From positions 1-22,817 of the IMG/VR virus record IMGVR_UViG_3300035034_000198: a DNA stretch of 22,817 nucleotides. One strand, written 5' to 3'. The notes under the pieces were generated by a model. That model was not told where the DNA came from, ran no database searches, and was given only the letters and a program-made list of their open reading frames with translations. The stretch comes from a virus. The translations under genes and the position numbers were made by a program. Each line of letters opens with the position of its first letter. Within the stretch, counting starts at the first letter, position 1. This document shows, piece by piece, positions 6,554 through 20,703 of the stretch.

Positions 6554-8914
6554 TTAATTTGTTATTGATGCTCTTCTTTTTAGGAATGCATCAGTGTCTA
6601 GTCCTTCTCTTATCTCAGAAGATACTACATAAGCTTTAGGAGGGGTAGCTAACCTTTGGTCTATCTTTCTAAGTACTGCATTCATTTCTGCATCCCTAGA
6701 AGCCATACCCCCTGTTGCAAATCTTTGAGGTCCACTATTTATCTGTTCTAGTAGAGGAAGGAATCTTTCAGTAGAAGCAGCGTTAATTACGAACTCTCCA
6801 TTAGACAATCTAGCGTTAATAGAATCTGAGGTACCCGTACCAGGTCCTTCTACAAGTCCACCGTCTGCAAACTGGGTTCTTCCTGAGTTACCTCCACCTC
6901 CGCCACCTCCGGATCCACCTCCGCCACCTTTAGCTGCAGATACTGCAGTAGATCTAGCTTTAGCTGCAGTTGCCAATTGAACTGCACCAATACCAGCCAT
7001 AATTGCAGCTGTACCAATACCTGCTGGGAATCCACCAGCAGCAGCAAAAGATGCAGCTATAGCTGATGCTGTAGATGATACAATATTACCGACATCAAGT
7101 GCAAACTTTACATTAGCTGCTTTAATAGCTAGTTTCTCTTCTTCCCTAGCTCTCTTCTGTTCCAATCCAATTAACTTCTGTTCCTTCTGAGCTTCTAGAG
7201 ATGCTATCTTTTCTGCATTACCTTCAGCAGCTGCTATTTGGTCAGCATAATTAGCTTCTATATTCTCTGTAAGATTATCGTATCTAACGCCTATAGCATC
7301 TAGTTCTGCACCTATCAGTCCATTAGCTAATCCTCCAGCAATTTGTAAACCTTCGTTTATACGGGCTGTAACTTCTGCGAAATTCTCTATAGATTGCTGT
7401 GTAGTAAAATTCTGAAGTGCTAGTTCATCTTGTATTTCTACAGTTCTTAATAGAATCTGTTGGTATTCAGTTTCTAGTTCGAGTTTTTCTAATGTACCTT
7501 CTTTAGCGAATTCTATTTGCTTAGCTAAAGCTTCTGTTGTTCTATTAGCAGCTTCTAGTTCTAATCCTAACCTTGCTTGGGTTGATTTTCTAACAGCTTC
7601 CTCAGAAGAATCTCCGGCCTCTAAGAATAGTCTTTCTTGTTCTAAAAGCTTAGCTTCTATTACTTCTAAAGTCTTATCCAGTTCGTCAGCTATAAATTGT
7701 GGGCCGGGGAGAAATTCCTCAAATACTTCCTCTGCTTCGAAATCTAAACCTTGACTGAGCCTTTCACCAAGCCTATCTATTTCTTCTTCTCTTTCCTTAT
7801 TGGCTTTATCTCTAAGATCTTTTTGTTTAGCATTATATTCAGTAGTAAGAGCTAATAGATCTACCTGAAGATCCTTATAAGCATCTGTTTCTTTACCGTT
7901 CTGAAGTTCTTCAAGTCTTAACCTATCCTGTAGTGCTTTTCTTTTAGCGTTAAATATAGCAGATTCTCCTGATTGTAATGCTTCTAATCTCTTTACGTTT
8001 CTCTCGTTTTCCTTCTCTATAGACTGAAGGTCAGCTATCTCATTTTCTTTAGCTTCTGCCTCCCTAGATTCTTTTACCGCTTTTACAGCTTCTTCCTTTA
8101 GGATACTGAATCCTTGGGCGATCGCAGCCTTAAGTGCATCAAAGTCTAACTCAAATATAGCCGTAAAAGCATCTCCTATAGAAGAAGCTATATCAGAGAA
8201 TCGGGTGAAGAATGCAGTGAATGCACCTATAGCACCATCGAATACTTGATCCCATCCACCAATAGATTCAGCGAAAGCATCTGCTGTCCTTATAACAATA
8301 CCCAATGGGCCTAATAGAGTTAGAATAGTATCCCCAATATTCTCTAGAGTACTATTAGATCCTTTTACGGACTTTGTTAGATTATCCCAGTTAGCAACGA
8401 GTAAACCTATACCAACAACGATCGCACCAATACCGGTAGACACTAACGCTAACCTAAATAACTTAAGAGCGCCTGTGGACGAGCCTACTACTGCTGCGTA
8501 TGCTCCTTGAGCAACTGCAGAAGCCTTAGTTGCTACAGTAGAAGCTAGAGTTGCTGCTGCGGCTACACCCTCTGCTGCTGCACCGAGTGCTAAAATAGCG
8601 TTAGTCTTTTGTAGGGTTTTTTCTAGTTCCTCGTTCTCCCCTGCAAATGTAGAAATGGCGATCCCAGCTGCACCTACTCCTGCTGCAAGTTTGCCAACAT
8701 TACCAGCTACCTCTCCTACATCTAGTTTTTGAAGTGAAGCTGAAGCCTTGTCTACCTGACCCTGTGTTTGTCTTATCTCTTTAGATAACTTCTTAAATTC
8801 TGCGGAGTTAACCCCTACTTCCTTTATCTGAGCGTTTAGACTTTCTAACTTAGTCTCCAGTTGACCTAGGGTGGTCGATTGTACGTTAATTTCTATATTT
8901 GCTTGTCCAGCCAT
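6554..8914 (-). CDS. Tail tape measure protein
   Basis: The protein has 786 residues. The N-terminal segment is heptad-rich (QLETKLESLNAQIKEVGVNS, then KLSKEIRQTQGQVDKA). Several hydrophobic segments follow, including LVSTGIGAIVVGIGLLVANW and a second Ala/Gly-rich one near residues 610-650, with a long charged coiled coil at about residues 270-500. It ends in a Gly-rich linker and a segment containing FADGGLVEGPGTGTSDSINA and LSNGEFVINA, a C-terminal pattern shared by many tape measure proteins. It fixes tail length; at the commonly used figure of about 0.15 nm per residue the tail would be near 0.12 micrometre (inference). It lies after the two large tail proteins in transcription order and directly before the head protease gene, an unusual junction. 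Confidence 0.88.
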   Translation of the reverse strand: MAGQANIEINVQSTTLGQLETKLESLNAQIKEVGVNSAEFKKLSKEIRQTQGQVDKASASLQKLDVGEVAGNVGKLAAGVGAAGIAISTFAGENEELEKTLQKTNAILALGAAAEGVAAAATLASTVATKASAVAQGAYAAVVGSSTGALKLFRLALVSTGIGAIVVGIGLLVANWDNLTKSVKGSNSTLENIGDTILTLLGPLGIVIRTADAFAESIGGWDQVFDGAIGAFTAFFTRFSDIASSIGDAFTAIFELDFDALKAAIAQGFSILKEEAVKAVKESREAEAKENEIADLQSIEKENERNVKRLEALQSGESAIFNAKRKALQDRLRLEELQNGKETDAYKDLQVDLLALTTEYNAKQKDLRDKANKEREEEIDRLGERLSQGLDFEAEEVFEEFLPGPQFIADELDKTLEVIEAKLLEQERLFLEAGDSSEEAVRKSTQARLGLELEAANRTTEALAKQIEFAKEGTLEKLELETEYQQILLRTVEIQDELALQNFTTQQSIENFAEVTARINEGLQIAGGLANGLIGAELDAIGVRYDNLTENIEANYADQIAAAEGNAEKIASLEAQKEQKLIGLEQKRAREEEKLAIKAANVKFALDVGNIVSSTASAIAASFAAAGGFPAGIGTAAIMAGIGAVQLATAAKARSTAVSAAKGGGGGSGGGGGGGNSGRTQFADGGLVEGPGTGTSDSINARLSNGEFVINAASTERFLPLLEQINSGPQRFATGGMASRDAEMNAVLRKIDQRLATPPKAYVVSSEIREGLDTDAFLKRRASITN

Positions 8915-13381: not shown

Positions 13382-13852
13382 TTATGCGTTTATATTTATT
13401 GGTTGTAGTGAATTTATAGTCCTCACTATTTCATCTTCTATTTCTTTAGGGAGATCCCTCTCTATGGACATAGCTGCCATTTGACCTATAGCATCTACTG
13501 CTGACTGAACCCAAGGTCTAGGTTTAAGACCAAACTTATAGATGTTCCTCCTTGCACCATAGGGTAGGTTACCCCCGATCATCTTAAATGCACCAGAGTA
13601 CTTAAAAGCCAACCCCTGGAATCCTCCTGCGGTTGAACCTCCAAGTGTACCTTGAACTCCCTCGTCCAAGAAAATACCATAATCATTAAAGGTTAAGTTG
13701 TATATGGGATCTTCTTCTGTTCCTTCTACTGTTACCCTTATTGAATTCATTAGAGCACCCGTTCTCCTACCAACTGGCGAGTTAGCCAAAGCTTCCATAG
13801 CTGCAGTCCTTAATAGGTTCGTATAGTCTTCTAAATTCAGTTTAATTAGCAT
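13382..13852 (-). CDS. HK97 gp10-like tail completion protein
   Basis: The 156-residue protein shows the layout of the HK97 gp10-like family: an N-terminal helix (DYTNLLRTAAMEALANSP), the turn GRRTGALMNSIRV, the segment NDYGIFLDEGVQGTLGG, and the family-typical ending with GLKPRPWVQSAVDAI, where an aromatic residue follows Arg-Pro. These proteins act at the head-tail joint or in tail completion. The start is 13 nt after the stop of the preceding gene; the next gene follows 1 nt after its stop. Confidence 0.72.
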   Translation of the reverse strand: MLIKLNLEDYTNLLRTAAMEALANSPVGRRTGALMNSIRVTVEGTEEDPIYNLTFNDYGIFLDEGVQGTLGGSTAGGFQGLAFKYSGAFKMIGGNLPYGARRNIYKFGLKPRPWVQSAVDAIGQMAAMSIERDLPKEIEDEIVRTINSLQPININA

Positions 13853-13865
13853 AGCTTATTCTTTA

Positions 13866-14348
13866 TTAACAAGGAGCAGGTGGCGGTGGTGGATCTGGTA
13901 GTGGTGCGAATGGTTTAGCGTCCAAGCAATTAGATTGGAATACATCCATAGAAACACTTAGGTTATTACCCGCCATAAAAGAGGAGAATCTCTCTTGAAA
14001 CGGAGTCATTAAAGAACCCGTAGCATTTAACCATGTACCTATCTTATCATCTTGATAAAGGAGGGCGGAGTAAATATCCATTAGAACCGAAGCCGTATCT
14101 GATATTATAGTTTCGAAGTTTGTCTTATCTGGAAAGAGTTCATCCATACAAATAAGGTTAAAAGAGAATCTGAATATGTTCTCCCTAGGTACAGATATAG
14201 GTTGGGGAACTATATAGATAATTATCCCATCAAAATCTGGTAGATCTTCAGTGTCTGCTAAGAATCCATATCTAACATCGTTTACCATCTTATGAGAAAG
14301 GCAAAGGGCTCTTAGTCTATCTAGAACTTGTAATTGAGTAGTTAACAT
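13866..14348 (-). CDS. Probable tail terminator / tail completion protein
   Basis: This 160-residue alpha/beta protein has the core LQVLDRLRALCLSHKMVNDV followed by strands (GIIIYIVPQPISV, IFRFSFNLICMDEL), a helix (ISDTASVLMDIYSALLY), and final strands (NNLSVSMDVFQSNCLD). This order resembles tail terminator proteins that cap the tail tube at the head side, though the match is at the level of pattern only. A proline-rich tail (PLPDPPPPPAPC) ends the protein. It lies between the chaperone-like gene and the gp10-like gene. The 30-nt gap upstream is AT-rich with no clear ribosome site. Confidence 0.5.
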   Translation of the reverse strand: MLTTQLQVLDRLRALCLSHKMVNDVRYGFLADTEDLPDFDGIIIYIVPQPISVPRENIFRFSFNLICMDELFPDKTNFETIISDTASVLMDIYSALLYQDDKIGTWLNATGSLMTPFQERFSSFMAGNNLSVSMDVFQSNCLDAKPFAPLPDPPPPPAPC

Positions 14349-14378: not shown

Positions 14379-15211
14379 TTAAGTCCTATTATTAGACTTG
14401 TTTCTATTATTAATCTCGTCCACTTTCGCTTTCTGTACCAAGTAATTAGCTAGGGTAAGGAAAGTCATGTAGTTAGTCTCTAGTGTAGCATCTACTTTAG
14501 CCACTTCTTCATTAGAGAAAGACCAAACTAGTGGTAGCCACCCAAAGCCCTCTAACCTTGCTTCTGGTGATCCGATGTAATTTCCGTTAGACTCCTCTTC
14601 ATCTTCTTCAGGTGGGTCTTTAAAGAGGTCAGGGAACTTGTCTGTAACTCCCTTGATAAAATCAAAAAAAAAGTGACGACATGATGTCCGATATAAGCTG
14701 GAGAGTCTTTTATGATATCCAATCTGGATTCACATTTAAGAGGATCGTATTTCTCTATCTCAAAGTTTAGCGTGTTCATCCACTTTACCACCTTCTTTTG
14801 AAACCATGGGTGATTAACCCTAGCTCCGAACTTACCTACTATATTAAGCTTCACGGTAGACCAGAATGACATCTTCAGCACGGGTCTATATAGGTAAGAT
14901 ACTAAAAGGGTCAGGTGCTTAGCGGGTTCTGAAGCTAAAGATACCACGTCATCAAAAAGACCAAAGGGCATTTCATTTAAATCCTGAAGTCCGTATAGTC
15001 TCCCGTCCTTACCAACGAATATCTGAGCAACTGCCTTTCTATCTTGTGGCTTTATAGAACCAACCCTAAGTGTCGTAATCTCAGATAGGGTCATATCATT
15101 CTTAGACTTCCCAGTAAGTGCCCAAAGTAAATCCTCTGGTTTCTTAGAATCCCCGTTCTGCAGAAGTCTTGAATACTGTTCGGTTGTTAGGTTATCCCAA
15201 TTATAGATCAT
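14379..15211 (-). CDS. Predicted -1 frameshift fusion of the tail assembly chaperone (gpGT-like)
   Basis: If ribosomes slip back one base on the T9 run (minus-strand reading of 14672-14664), residues 1-182 join 95 further residues ending at the TAA at 14381-14379, for a total near 277. The extension begins F-D-F-I-K-G-V-T-D-K-F, has an acidic patch (PPEEDEEES), and contains LEGFGWLPLVWSFSNEEVAK followed by NYMTFLTLANYLVQKAKVDE. This resembles C-terminal domains I recall from Bacteroidota phage tail genes. The 0-frame beyond the run has no such character and the +1 frame stops at once. The exact slip codon is inferred. A one-base assembly error in the homopolymer would instead make the fusion the only product. 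Confidence 0.65.
14552..15211 (-). CDS. Tail assembly chaperone-like protein, unshifted short form (gpG-like)
   Basis: Read without frameshift, this gene gives 219 residues. Residues 1-182 look like a real globular protein (starts MIYNWDNLTTEQYSRLLQNG; later GKFGARVNHPWFQKKVVKWM). After the T9 run at codons 180-183 the frame continues for only 37 residues of unusual composition (Ser, Lys, Thr, Leu-rich). The -1 frame is open over this stretch and much further and has a more protein-like composition. This matches the gpG/gpGT logic of lambda-type tail chaperones, in which the short form is the majority product and chaperones the tape measure. The start overlaps the upstream membrane-protein gene by 4 nt (ATGA). 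Confidence 0.6.
   Translation of the reverse strand: MIYNWDNLTTEQYSRLLQNGDSKKPEDLLWALTGKSKNDMTLSEITTLRVGSIKPQDRKAVAQIFVGKDGRLYGLQDLNEMPFGLFDDVVSLASEPAKHLTLLVSYLYRPVLKMSFWSTVKLNIVGKFGARVNHPWFQKKVVKWMNTLNFEIEKYDPLKCESRLDIIKDSPAYIGHHVVTFFLILSRELQTSSLTSLKTHLKKMKRSLTEITSDHQKQG
14663..14674 (-). promoter_or_regulatory. Slippery site for -1 frameshifting (T9 run)
   Basis: The coding strand reads AC TTTTTTTTT G, with 0-frame codons ACT-TTT-TTT-TTG. Both tRNA positions can re-pair after a -1 slip (TTT to TTT). Slippage could be ribosomal or transcriptional. No clear downstream pseudoknot was identified by eye. Confidence 0.65.
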
Positions 15212-15603
15212 TTAATTTTCTTTTGTTTATATATCGGTTCTTCAAAACGTGTGTTTTCGTAGTCTTCCCCATCTGTAGCGGGTTCCTCCCTAGGGGATTC
15301 AGAATCTTCTCGAGGGTAAGGATCATAAGGGTCATAAGGATCATAGTGTGGTCTTCTTCGTCTTCTTCTCCTTGTTCCATTAGGGGATAGTATACCACTG
15401 AACTTCTCAGAAGCTACAAACCCAATACCAAAGATGACAAGGGTTATCATTCCATCCCACATGAACTCGTCTATAGTAAAGTCCATAAAAAGGTTCAGTA
15501 GGAAAGCTCCACTAATAAGCATAAACGCTATTATGGATATAGCTCTCTTAGACGAAAAGTTACCTTCTGAATCTTTAAGGATCTCATTTACCCATTTTCT
15601 CAT
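15208..15603 (-). CDS. Two-TM membrane protein with Arg7 and DPY repeats (holin candidate)
   Basis: This 131-residue protein has a short cytoplasmic-type start containing SEGNFSSKRAIS, two hydrophobic helices (AFMLISGAFLLNLFMDF and GMITLVIFGIGFVASEKF), then seven consecutive Arg and a triple Asp-Pro-Tyr repeat (DPYDPYDPY), with an acidic C-terminal half. Small two-helix phage membrane proteins of this shape with a DxxGxxSSKR start are frequent in Bacteroidota phages, and a holin or holin-like role is a guess. It overlaps the terminase stop by 4 nt and the chaperone start by 4 nt, so it is translated as part of the packaging/tail operon. The Arg run could bind nucleic acid or anchor at the membrane surface. 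Confidence 0.5.
   Translation of the reverse strand: MRKWVNEILKDSEGNFSSKRAISIIAFMLISGAFLLNLFMDFTIDEFMWDGMITLVIFGIGFVASEKFSGILSPNGTRRRRRRRPHYDPYDPYDPYPREDSESPREEPATDGEDYENTRFEEPIYKQKKIK
15318..15344. repeat. Triple 9-bp tandem repeat inside coding sequence
   Basis: Three copies of AAGGRTCAT in a row encode the Asp-Pro-Tyr triplets of the two-TM protein. Copy number changes in such a unit would alter the protein by three residues at a time without frame loss. Confidence 0.75.
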
Positions 15604-16862
15604 TTAGCGAAACTTGGTTTAGAAGAGGGGAATGAAAACTTAGGTTTACCCGAATTCTTAGACCAGTTAGATACACAAAGGGCGAGTGACATAATGATAT
15701 CATCATGAGCACCTGATATACCTTTATAGGATAGGAGGCCTGAGGGTAGGATCTTATAACCGAATGTCTGTATTTCATTATGTAACTCTGGCCAAAGGTT
15801 CTCTGTAGGTATTCGTATCTTCTCCTCTGCTATTTGAAGTTTAAGGTTCTCTATTGCATCACCCTTAGTCTTATTGGTTGTGGTAAAGGGTTGTACTAAA
15901 GAGCCTACTGCAGATCTAAGTTGTTCGAAGATAACTGACCCTATATTATTAAGCTCTACATAAGTCGAGCATCTCCAATGAAGTATCTTCTCTGTTACCT
16001 TCCCTATTATCTGTTCCCAAGATGTTTGCCTCTCTCTAAAGTAGTCTACCACATTACCTTTATCGTCCATTATAGTTAGTACAGTATAATCATCGGCAAT
16101 CGCTAAATCGAGGCCGGCTTTATATTTGACCCCGTCTTCTGGTTCTTTCTGAAACTTGGTGATTGTAGATATAGCTTCTATCCCTTCAAACACGGAAGAG
16201 CCCGAATCAGTAAACTCCCCTAAGTATTCTGAAGCGAATATATTAGCGGGGAGAAGCTTACGAGCCATACGGATCTCCTCCGGGTCAATATAAGGATTCT
16301 CGTCAGTCTTAATTGTATAGGAAGACCAGTCTTTCCATTCGGGGTCTAACCCAATATCGAATAGATCCTTAAAGTGGTTCTTCCCTCTAGGGGTAGAAAA
16401 GAAACAGATCTTCTTACCTTTAACGAGGGTAGCAGGCTTTAGGATCTCTGACCATAGGTTCTCTCTCTGATATGCATGCTCATCACATAGTAGGTAATCA
16501 AAAGTGTTACCCCTAAGAGAGTTATAGGCTTCCCCTGAAAAGAATGACATAGTAGATCCATTCTTAAAGTTAATAATTAGATCCTGAGCATTGTTAGATT
16601 TCACTATCATGACCGCCGAGTCCCCTAGAGATTTCAACATTTCTAGGTATAGTTTCTTAGCCTGTGGGAATACTGGGGATACTACCCCCGTCATTACGTT
16701 CGGGGTCTCGAGGGTAAACTTAAATGCTAGGTTAAGTATCATTAGGGACTTACCACACTGTCTCGATGAAGATATAACGTGGTGTTTGGCGGGTTTATTT
16801 AAGATGCCTCCTAGTATTCTTGTTTGAGCCCCGTAAGGTGTGAAATTAGTTGTTATATTCAT
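15600..16862 (-). CDS. terL: Terminase large subunit (packaging ATPase/nuclease)
   Basis: This 420-residue protein contains both terminase domains. ATPase: a variant Walker A, SSRQCGKS (residues 32-39); Walker B YLLCDE (123-128); coupling motif FFSTPRG (154-160). RNase H-like nuclease: AGLDLA with Asp252, YVELNN with Glu303, and GAHDDI with Asp387/Asp388. It drives DNA translocation into the procapsid and cuts the concatemer. It starts on the last base of the small terminase stop (TAATG) and overlaps the next gene by 4 nt, a tightly coupled arrangement. The length is typical of shorter TerL proteins. Confidence 0.93.
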   Translation of the reverse strand: MNITTNFTPYGAQTRILGGILNKPAKHHVISSSRQCGKSLMILNLAFKFTLETPNVMTGVVSPVFPQAKKLYLEMLKSLGDSAVMIVKSNNAQDLIINFKNGSTMSFFSGEAYNSLRGNTFDYLLCDEHAYQRENLWSEILKPATLVKGKKICFFSTPRGKNHFKDLFDIGLDPEWKDWSSYTIKTDENPYIDPEEIRMARKLLPANIFASEYLGEFTDSGSSVFEGIEAISTITKFQKEPEDGVKYKAGLDLAIADDYTVLTIMDDKGNVVDYFRERQTSWEQIIGKVTEKILHWRCSTYVELNNIGSVIFEQLRSAVGSLVQPFTTTNKTKGDAIENLKLQIAEEKIRIPTENLWPELHNEIQTFGYKILPSGLLSYKGISGAHDDIIMSLALCVSNWSKNSGKPKFSFPSSKPSFAK

Positions 16863-18794: not shown

Positions 18795-19808
18795 TTATTT
18801 TAATAATCCTTTCGCTCTAAGTTCAGCAACTATAGCATCCCCGTCTATAATATTTACAGTAGTTCCCGGTGGAGCTTTAGAATAATCCTTAGTTCCGTCA
18901 GGTCTAAGTGAACTTTGGAAACCATCCATTGCACGATGTCCAATATTCTTTTTTCTTTCTACTGAAGGTTTTATTGCCCTTATTTCCTCAATTAACGAAT
19001 TTGCTTCAGTATTATCCTTAAGGAGACTTGACATCCATGTTAAATATCTATTTTTCAAGATGGAGGGCTGAGCATTTTTAAGCTCTTGAATGATTCTCAT
19101 CCTATCATCTGGAGAGAACTTAAAGAATCTCTTTTTAGCTGTCCCCCTTCCGTTCTTATTTTTTAGACCCATATCCGCTTCTGAAGGATAAAGCTTTATG
19201 AAACTTGCCCATTCTAATTCTTTATCTATTTCTGATAGGGCAGCTTGCTCTTTAGGTTCTGTAAACTGATAATCACCTAAAGGATCCTTACTAATATCTT
19301 TTTCATTCTTTCCTGAAAGCTTATCAAGATTCTCAACACACAAATCCGGCTCGTCCGGTGCTTGTTGTTCTTTTACATTCTTTATTATATTCTTATTACA
19401 TTCTTGTATGTGGGTAGTCTGTTGGGTAGTCTGTTGGGTAGTCTGTTGGGTAGTGGGGACCTCTAAATTCTGATATTTTTCATAATTAACCACTGTTATA
19501 ATAGTAGTAGAGTTAGATATCTCTTGAGTAATCTGTTGGGTACTTTCTAGCTTTTTTAAGAAATTTCTTGTCGTTTTTCTGTTCCAATTCCAACGTTTAG
19601 AGAGTTCACCCTTAGACCTAACTAATTGACCTCTTTCCACTATAGTTATAATCCCGTTATTCATAAATTTAGAGGTAGAATGATTAGCTAGAAGTAGTAT
19701 TTCTAGCCAAGCTTCTCTCTTAGAAAGCTTTTCGCCTTTTGATAGTTTCCAGAAGTCAGAATCTAGTAGGTCTCTGTGTATCTTTATCCATCCTTGTTTT
19801 TTGCTCAT
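18795..19808 (-). CDS. Replication initiator-like winged-helix protein
   Basis: This 337-residue protein begins MSKKQGWIKIHRDLLDSDFW, a common opening of phage and prophage replication initiators (DnaD-like/O-like). The winged-helix region follows with VERGQLVRSKGELSKRW and NRKTTRNFLKKLE (about 57-88). Residues 119-132 are a TTQQ repeat coded by 12-bp tandem DNA units, followed by a Lys/Glu-rich linker and a helical C-terminal domain (FIKLYPSEADMGLKNK; MRIIQELKNAQPSILKNRYL) that may contact the helicase loader encoded next. The ATG shares its first base with the stop of the 114-aa gene (TAATG), and an AGGAG sequence lies close upstream. The internal repeats could form part of the origin. Confidence 0.75.
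   Translation of the reverse strand: MSKKQGWIKIHRDLLDSDFWKLSKGEKLSKREAWLEILLLANHSTSKFMNNGIITIVERGQLVRSKGELSKRWNWNRKTTRNFLKKLESTQQITQEISNSTTIITVVNYEKYQNLEVPTTQQTTQQTTQQTTHIQECNKNIIKNVKEQQAPDEPDLCVENLDKLSGKNEKDISKDPLGDYQFTEPKEQAALSEIDKELEWASFIKLYPSEADMGLKNKNGRGTAKKRFFKFSPDDRMRIIQELKNAQPSILKNRYLTWMSSLLKDNTEANSLIEEIRAIKPSVERKKNIGHRAMDGFQSSLRPDGTKDYSKAPPGTTVNIIDGDAIVAELRAKGLLK
19412..19454. repeat. 12-bp tandem repeats in initiator gene (iteron-like)
   Basis: The unit GGGTAGTCTGTT occurs three times in tandem and a partial fourth follows (GGGTAGT). A related TCTGTTGGGTAC occurs about 80 bp away (near 19535). In the protein it encodes TTQQ. Phage origins are often such iterons inside the initiator gene; an origin role is inferred. 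Confidence 0.7.
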
Positions 19809-19863
19809 TATCCTATTCTCCTATCGATTAGATCCTTAGCTGTTACATTATCGAGATATTCAA
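19802..19863. repeat. 62-bp direct repeat, copy A (end of 114-aa gene, start of initiator)
   Basis: 60 of 62 positions match 20146-20207. It encodes the 18 C-terminal residues EYLD(N/K)VTAKDLIDRRIG region of the upstream gene, its TAA stop, the AGGAG ribosome site, and the ATG plus second codon of the next gene. Confidence 0.9.
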
Positions 19864-20152
19864 TTACGGACGGGATTACGAGTAGATCGTCCTCCCAATA
19901 AGCCACTCCATAGTTGCAACATAGTTCGATCTTAGTTGCAACTGAGTCGGCTCTTAGTCGCAACATAGATGCAACATAGGAGTAACTAAGTTCCAACTTA
20001 TACTCACCTCTAATGTAACATTCATCTATTAAAAACCTGTACATATCTCTCACATCTGGTTTCATTGTAATAACTCTTGGATCTGTTCTCCAATCCTTAG
20101 GATAAAACGTATAGCCAAATCCATTCTGATTTTTTATTTTATTTCTGCTCAT
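19808..20152 (-). CDS. Small winged-helix-like replication protein
   Basis: This 114-residue protein contains FGYTFYPKDWRTDPRVITMK, then DMYRFLIDECYIRGEYKLE, a helix-turn-helix-like segment (LSYSYVASMLRLRADSVATKI), and a wing-like VAYWEDDLLVIPS. The start resembles DUF1376-like and initiator N-terminal domains, so it may be a replication or DNA-binding protein working with the next gene. The stop shares a base with the initiator ATG, and its own ATG shares a base with the HNH gene stop. Its last 18 residues are almost identical to those of the HNH protein because of the 62-bp repeat. Confidence 0.6.
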   Translation of the reverse strand: MSRNKIKNQNGFGYTFYPKDWRTDPRVITMKPDVRDMYRFLIDECYIRGEYKLELSYSYVASMLRLRADSVATKIELCCNYGVAYWEDDLLVIPSVIEYLDNVTAKDLIDRRIG

Positions 20153-20207
20153 TATCCTATTCTCCTATCGATTAGATCCTTAGCTGTTACCTTGTCGAGA
20201 TATTCAA
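20146..20207. repeat. 62-bp direct repeat, copy B (end of HNH gene, start of 114-aa gene)
   Basis: Near-identical to 19802-19863 (two mismatches at 20191 and 20194). It gives the HNH gene the same C-terminal end and the following gene the same ribosome site and start as in copy A. Confidence 0.9.
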
Positions 20208-20703
20208 ATGACCAATGAACCCTTTCAGATCTTCCCTCCTTAGCTAACCATTCTCTTATTGTTTTCAAAGCACAGCCAGTTATGGAAGAAGCTTCTTCCA
20301 TCGAGACGCATATATGAGATTCACCAGTTTTGTAGTTAGTACATTTTAGTGGTTTACATCTTTGTCTTCTAACGTTATCCTTAAATGATACCCATTGTAA
20401 GTTATCTACTCTATTATCTGTAGAGATGTTATTGATATGATCTACTATGTAGTCGTCTGCTGGTTGGGGTCCTATAAAATGCATTGCCACTAGTTTAGCA
20501 ATTGATATATTTTTAGGTCTACCATTAGAGGATTCCGAATTTCTTAACATAATAAAGTTGTAAATCTTCCCATTTTTATTTAGGATCTTCTTTGGAGAAA
20601 GAACTTTAGGACTAGTCTTTTTATAAGATTTGATGTTTCCTATATTAGATACCCAGTAATCTTTAAAACCTTTTAAGGTAATTTGTCTGTATTCTTCGTT
20701 CAT
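20152..20703 (-). CDS. NUMOD4/HNH homing endonuclease with copied C-terminal end
   Basis: The 183-residue protein has a NUMOD4-like opening (FKDYWVSNIGNIKSYKK), an HNH core (YIVDHINNISTDNRVDNLQW, with Asp-His and Asn-Asn-Leu), and a NUMOD1-type helix-turn-helix (SMEEASSITGCALKTIREWL). These are the parts of self-spreading HNH homing endonucleases common in phages. Its final residues (EYLDKVTAKDLIDRRIG) do not belong to that family: they are those of the downstream 114-aa protein, copied in the 62-bp repeat. A candidate regulatory motif and a short GC-rich inverted repeat lie upstream. The endonuclease is probably a selfish insertion in the replication operon. Confidence 0.85.
   Translation of the reverse strand: MNEEYRQITLKGFKDYWVSNIGNIKSYKKTSPKVLSPKKILNKNGKIYNFIMLRNSESSNGRPKNISIAKLVAMHFIGPQPADDYIVDHINNISTDNRVDNLQWVSFKDNVRRQRCKPLKCTNYKTGESHICVSMEEASSITGCALKTIREWLAKEGRSERVHWSFEYLDKVTAKDLIDRRIG

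Follow-up and report, generated by a model that had tools for sequence, protein, structure and literature searches.

Gene organization of the window

The window, that is, the whole stretch of DNA that was analysed, is a 22.8 kb virus record whose genes are arranged in the order TerS, TerL, a 131 aa gene, the slip gene, a 160 aa gene, a Neck1-like gene, a 578 aa gene, an 898 aa gene, tape measure, protease, capsid and portal (Table 1). Four genes (160 aa, Neck1-like, 578 aa and 898 aa) lie between the slip gene and the tape measure gene, and the original description of the slip gene as being next to the terminase instead of before the tape measure gene is correct for this window. A gene of size similar to the 160 aa one also lies 3' of the slip gene in four related loci (L009, L033, L034 and L055). 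Elsewhere in the window (19808-20703), two neighbouring ORFs, one of which is HNH-like, share the C-terminal peptide YLDxVTAKDLIDRRIG, representing a local duplication.

Table 1. Features of the slip gene and of its neighbours in the window
Feature	Position	Strand	Details
Zero-frame ORF	14552..15211	-	219 aa, ATG at 15211; putative short gpG-like product
T9 slip site	14664..14672	-	GTC ACT TTT TTT TTG ATT; in-frame T_TTT_TTT
-1 frame extension	14379..14672	-	95 codons and a stop codon with 14379 as its last base; W conserved in G[FYW]GW; predicted long gpGT-like product of 277 aa
Terminase large subunit (TerL)	15600..16862	-	phrog_2, E 4e-39
Membrane-protein-like gene (131 aa) separating TerL from the slip gene	15208..15603	-	weak PHROG match
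160 aa gene immediately 3' of the slip gene	13866..14348	-	ORF reading
Neck1/tail-completion-like protein	13382..13852	-	phrog_5, E 0.003
Tape measure protein	6554..8914	-	phrog_25241, E 8e-18

Based on ORF reading, the zero frame is composed of a 182-residue N domain, which ends with two Phe residues inside the T run, and a 37-residue tail, and in the +1 frame a TGA lies immediately 3' of the run. The original prediction, which had described a T9 run, a zero frame of 182 codons plus 37 and a -1 extension of 95 codons, proved correct in every detail.

A conserved -1 split in a widespread family

The original prediction proposed that the two domains be searched separately against phage proteins. 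With the two domains of the window itself as tblastn queries, GenBank phages gave no match, and an initial scan of genome contigs likewise found no relatives; these were reached later by a profile begun from the window and L004 (27% identical), which extended to phage contigs, to a large number of Bacteroidota genomes and to Nonlabens phages P12024S and P12024L. When L010 was used as the tblastn query against GenBank phages, a weak lead to P12024S was obtained, which was confirmed by the T9 split that P12024S itself possesses. Hosts are given as Bacteroidota because the searched groups were built around a genome recorded as an uncultured Flavobacteriaceae bacterium. The T9/-1 arrangement was not seen in any of five other cultured Bacteroidota phages inspected (11b, B124-14, P12002L, 6H and phi10:1). 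In Cellulophaga phage phi10:1 (L020, 36889), an A8 run is found at the position of gp085/gp086, 5' of a large structural protein gene and with an extension in the +1 or -2 frame, and may be a different frameshift site.

A total of 57 loci from phages and Bacteroidota genomes, with identities down to 16-30%, are divided at the same codon, as had been sought; both domains are present in two frames, and the second frame is always -1. The T run in these loci sits at two invariant Phe codons, and, among 13 diverse aligned sequences, the only invariant columns are M1 and the two slip-site Phe residues. When near-duplicates are counted, the junction runs comprise 26 T7, 5 T8, 24 T9 and 2 T10. Both isolate phages, Nonlabens P12024S and P12024L, also have T9. 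In P12024S (L013, JQ823122), gp38 and gp39 belong to the same family and, as in the window, have the same T9 and -1 extension directly after TerL, with the run in a codon phase other than that of the window; they are annotated as two separate hypothetical proteins and, on this comparison, are to be read as one slip gene.

Homologues in which both domains are unsplit in a single frame were also detected (L029/L032, L036, L037, L049, L059, L064, L122 and L123). L121, whose junction has T7 within one open frame of 273 codons, is closely related to L063, a locus that is split at T9. A -1 slip in L121 would meet TGA immediately and thereby generate the short form, the opposite of L063. Genome G005, a Flavobacteriaceae MAG, has three extension matches (L030-L032) with open frames of 221-231 aa, of which L032 was read as a fused homologue 3' of TerL.

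Considering that homopolymers are error-prone and that L121 and further homologues (L029, L036 and L037) are in a single frame, an indel or assembly error in the T run of a phage whose real gene is single-frame might be suspected. However, random indels would be expected to produce either frame, whereas dozens of genome assemblies, both isolate genomes and three metagenome contigs, which are independent of each other, all carry the -1 split and a long, conserved extension. The T9 run is identical in two other IMG/VR contigs, and the extension evolves as coding DNA past the zero-frame stop: between the window and L009, single-coding codons of the extension differ at 10, 6 and 30 sites in codon positions 1, 2 and 3, respectively. 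Together with the arrangement in 57 loci, these observations exclude an artefact in practical terms, and we regard such an error as extremely improbable. The possibility that the extension is a separate gene with its own start, as the annotation of P12024S gp38 and gp39 as two genes would suggest, is nearly as improbable. In the window, no ATG, GTG or TTG occurs in the -1 frame from the upstream stop to extension codon 54, and in L034 the first start codon is found only at codon 77, yet the part of the extension preceding these codons is conserved. An independent start was rejected on this ground, and the window extension, lacking a start codon in its first 54 codons, needs a frameshift to be translated. 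The split at the same codon in 57 loci, the coding evolution of the extension and the absence of an early start codon argue that the -1 frame transition is a conserved, functional feature of the slip gene. The originally proposed -1 transition on the T run that joins the two domains is thus strongly supported by these relatives, as well as by the single-frame fused homologues (L029 and L121).

Length, codon phase and surroundings of the T run

About 16 lineages, including the window, have a run of exactly T9, and outside a clade of T7/T8 loci nearly every run has exactly nine T's. T9 loci occur in all codon phases: phase 0 (CAG TTT TTT TTT), phase 1 (CTT TTT TTT TAT) and phase 2 (ACT TTT TTT TTG). 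On the tree, the phase of T9 changed at least five times with the length of nine kept, which places the two T's additional to T_TTT_TTT in different codons. Coding T runs of seven or more elsewhere in the same contigs (270 kb) comprise 22 T7, 3 T8 and 1 T9, compared with 15 T9 and 1 T8 among the junction runs. In many bacterial genomes, coding regions begin to show avoidance of A or T runs at a length of nine (PMC1088944), which is also the length of the RNA:DNA hybrid (PMC5574713).

The +1 frame, which would be the fate of a U8 transcript, closes within 0-10 codons, the sum being 47 codons over 15 lineages. Two null models expect sums of 165 and 126, and a third, drawn after Phe codons, has a mean of 9.7 codons per site; the probabilities of such early closure under the three nulls are 4e-5, 1.6e-3 and 4e-4. 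Part of the early closure is due to a T9-GA motif that recurs among the loci and that, read in the extension, specifies Asp/Glu as well.

No significant downstream RNA structure was detected in any lineage (z -1.3 to +1.2). The features looked for as signs of -1 ribosomal frameshifting are divided in the window: an in-frame X_XXY_YYZ heptamer is present, but neither a stimulatory structure (downstream z +0.40) nor a Shine-Dalgarno (SD)-like core upstream of T9 was found. Those looked for as signs of transcriptional slippage are a homopolymer of about nine T's on the coding strand and the occurrence of all codon phases among T9 loci, both of which are seen in the slip gene. A hairpin resembling an intrinsic terminator immediately 5' of T9 is striking in L004, L010 and L033 and is not general (combined p 0.04, mean z -0.18).

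A conserved upstream element at short runs

GGAGG is present no more than 40 nt upstream of the run in all 31 T7/T8 loci versus 1 of 26 T9/T10 loci (background 1.9%), a contrast that rests on only two independent short-run lineages. The corresponding Fisher p of 3e-15 overstates the link because the short runs represent two origins. One of them is a clade of 30 loci (L072-L120), outside which the T9/T10 members branch on the tree; its T7/T8 run lies at a fixed phase, with a conserved element, GGGTAACGGAGGC (also written GGGTAACGGAGGCRCTGCCC), 19 nt upstream of the run. The other, L061, is a separate T8 lineage with GGAGG 9 nt upstream. Synonymous constraint is evident in the element of the 30-locus clade, where GAG is used in 30/30 loci versus 30% elsewhere, and codons of the element are identical at 82% versus 51% among five clade members. 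A possible 5 bp stem (GGGTA/TGCCC) that would hold GGAGG in its loop can be paired in 87-100% of the clade's loci. Such a conserved GGAGG element is unexpected in a phylum with a sequestered anti-SD, as is normally the case for Bacteroidota ribosomes (PMC10783764).

RNA polymerase or ribosome slippage

Comparison of the loci establishes that the -1 split is conserved and coupled to the T run, and the question that follows is which machine slips. Our best explanation, held with slightly better than even confidence, is a gpG/gpGT-like chaperone pair in which the frame would be shifted at transcription by RNA polymerase slippage on T9. According to this model, RNA polymerase would slip on the T9 template and produce some mRNA with one extra U (U10), normal translation of which would give the fused protein, whereas a U8 mRNA would lead reading immediately to TGA. 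Two proteins with a common N domain would result, most of them the 219 aa zero-frame form and a presumed minority the 277 aa form with its C domain read in the -1 frame.

The principal competing explanation is a classical -1 programmed ribosomal frameshift by tandem tRNA-Phe slippage on U_UUU_UUU, for which the extra T's would merely broaden the site. Because every T9 run holds an in-frame T_TTT_TTT, as do all 57 loci, any locus of the family could use ribosomal slippage, and seven T's can evidently serve a slip gene, as seen in the T7 clade. The conserved GGAGG at fixed phase in the 30-locus clade and the GGAGG close to the T8 of L061 are also in its favour, and the published G/GT cases that we have seen are all ribosomal (PMC5009743). 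However, it leaves unexplained why a length of nine is found in three codon phases, why +1 stops are early and why the upstream element is lost whenever the run is nine or ten. The heptamer needs seven T's, whereas the two extra ones sit differently in each phase, and a downstream structure is found in no lineage. For these reasons, we consider ribosomal slippage throughout the family to be a serious but somewhat doubtful alternative.

A pure T9 may act by slippage of RNA polymerase and not of the ribosome, a possibility absent from the original prediction, and the comparative evidence leans toward this for the window phage. The data fit a division in which T9/T10 runs would use RNA polymerase slippage, and T7/T8 runs would use ribosomal slippage with an upstream stimulator. 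It is also conceivable, although we place it a little below even likelihood, that the level of decoding has switched at least two times, from an ancestral RNA polymerase slippage on T9 to ribosomal slippage on T7/T8 with a newly gained GGAGG.

A probable tail assembly chaperone

For the designation "tail chaperone-like" in the original prediction, support comes from the gene's architecture and its place in the tail module, but not from homology. No named family or known tail chaperone was matched in Pfam, NCBIfam or PHROGs, and a PDB fold search gave no match, so that similarity to a known chaperone in sequence, profile or fold was found in none of them. The N domain was modelled by AlphaFold2 with a pLDDT of 83.5, and its BFVD matches are only uncharacterised phage proteins, including Nonlabens phage P12024S gp38; the model of the extension is poor (pLDDT 59). 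PHROG 32199, whose function is unknown, is matched by 5 of 13 family members.

One of the features by which G/GT pairs are recognized, a conserved -1 shift that links two overlapping ORFs, is found in 57 loci; location directly upstream of the tape measure gene, another such feature, is not seen in the window. Predicted short and long products encoded in the tail module of a phage that bears a tape measure gene are best read, on the model of lambda (PMC5009743), as a candidate tail assembly chaperone pair. Alternatively, the slip gene may encode a real frameshifted phage protein other than a tail chaperone, such as a head-tail or baseplate factor, as the lack of profile and PDB matches and the intervening genes in the window might imply. 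This appears unlikely, since two products with a common N domain in the tail module are the G/GT signature and, next to the tape measure gene of the window, no alternative candidate is seen. In addition, L037 and L077, both fused homologues, precede a likely tape measure gene by one to three genes; this gene was assigned by a weak PHROG match in L037 (E 0.003) and by reading only, without PHROGs support, in L077.

Comparison with known systems

Frameshifted tail chaperones are already well known: lambda gpG/gpGT and other -1 frameshifted tail assembly chaperones were described by Xu, Hendrix and Duda and have been reviewed (PMC5009743). In the literature searched, we found no description of a phage tail chaperone with transcriptional slippage, nor of a Bacteroidota phage family built on T runs in which slippage is likely transcriptional and may have switched level. 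The genes reported here, probable tail chaperones of Bacteroidota phages, form a widespread and unnamed family whose members annotation divides in two. Its T9 members without, and T7/T8 members with, the upstream element offer a natural comparison for understanding when RNA polymerase or ribosomal slippage sets a protein ratio, and raise the question of whether elongating ribosomes can respond to an SD-like element where the anti-SD of the phylum is sequestered (PMC10783764).

Similar to lambda gpG/gpGT, the slip gene is one gene with two overlapping frames and a -1 shift near the end of the first, predicted to give a short and a long protein that share their N part, and it belongs to a phage structural module. 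It differs in that no sequence or profile similarity was found, in its pure T7-T10 run, in its location in the window after TerL and not immediately before the tape measure gene, and in the probable transcriptional slippage of its T9 lineages. Transcriptional slippage on nine A or T is used by Shigella mxiE, Thermus dnaX and IS elements (PMC1088944; PMC5009743). The slip gene, a candidate for such slippage, resembles these in having a coding-region run of nine where one extra base would open a second frame and, like dnaX, for which the level of decoding varies among bacteria (PMC1088944; PMC5009743), it may use different levels of decoding in different lineages.
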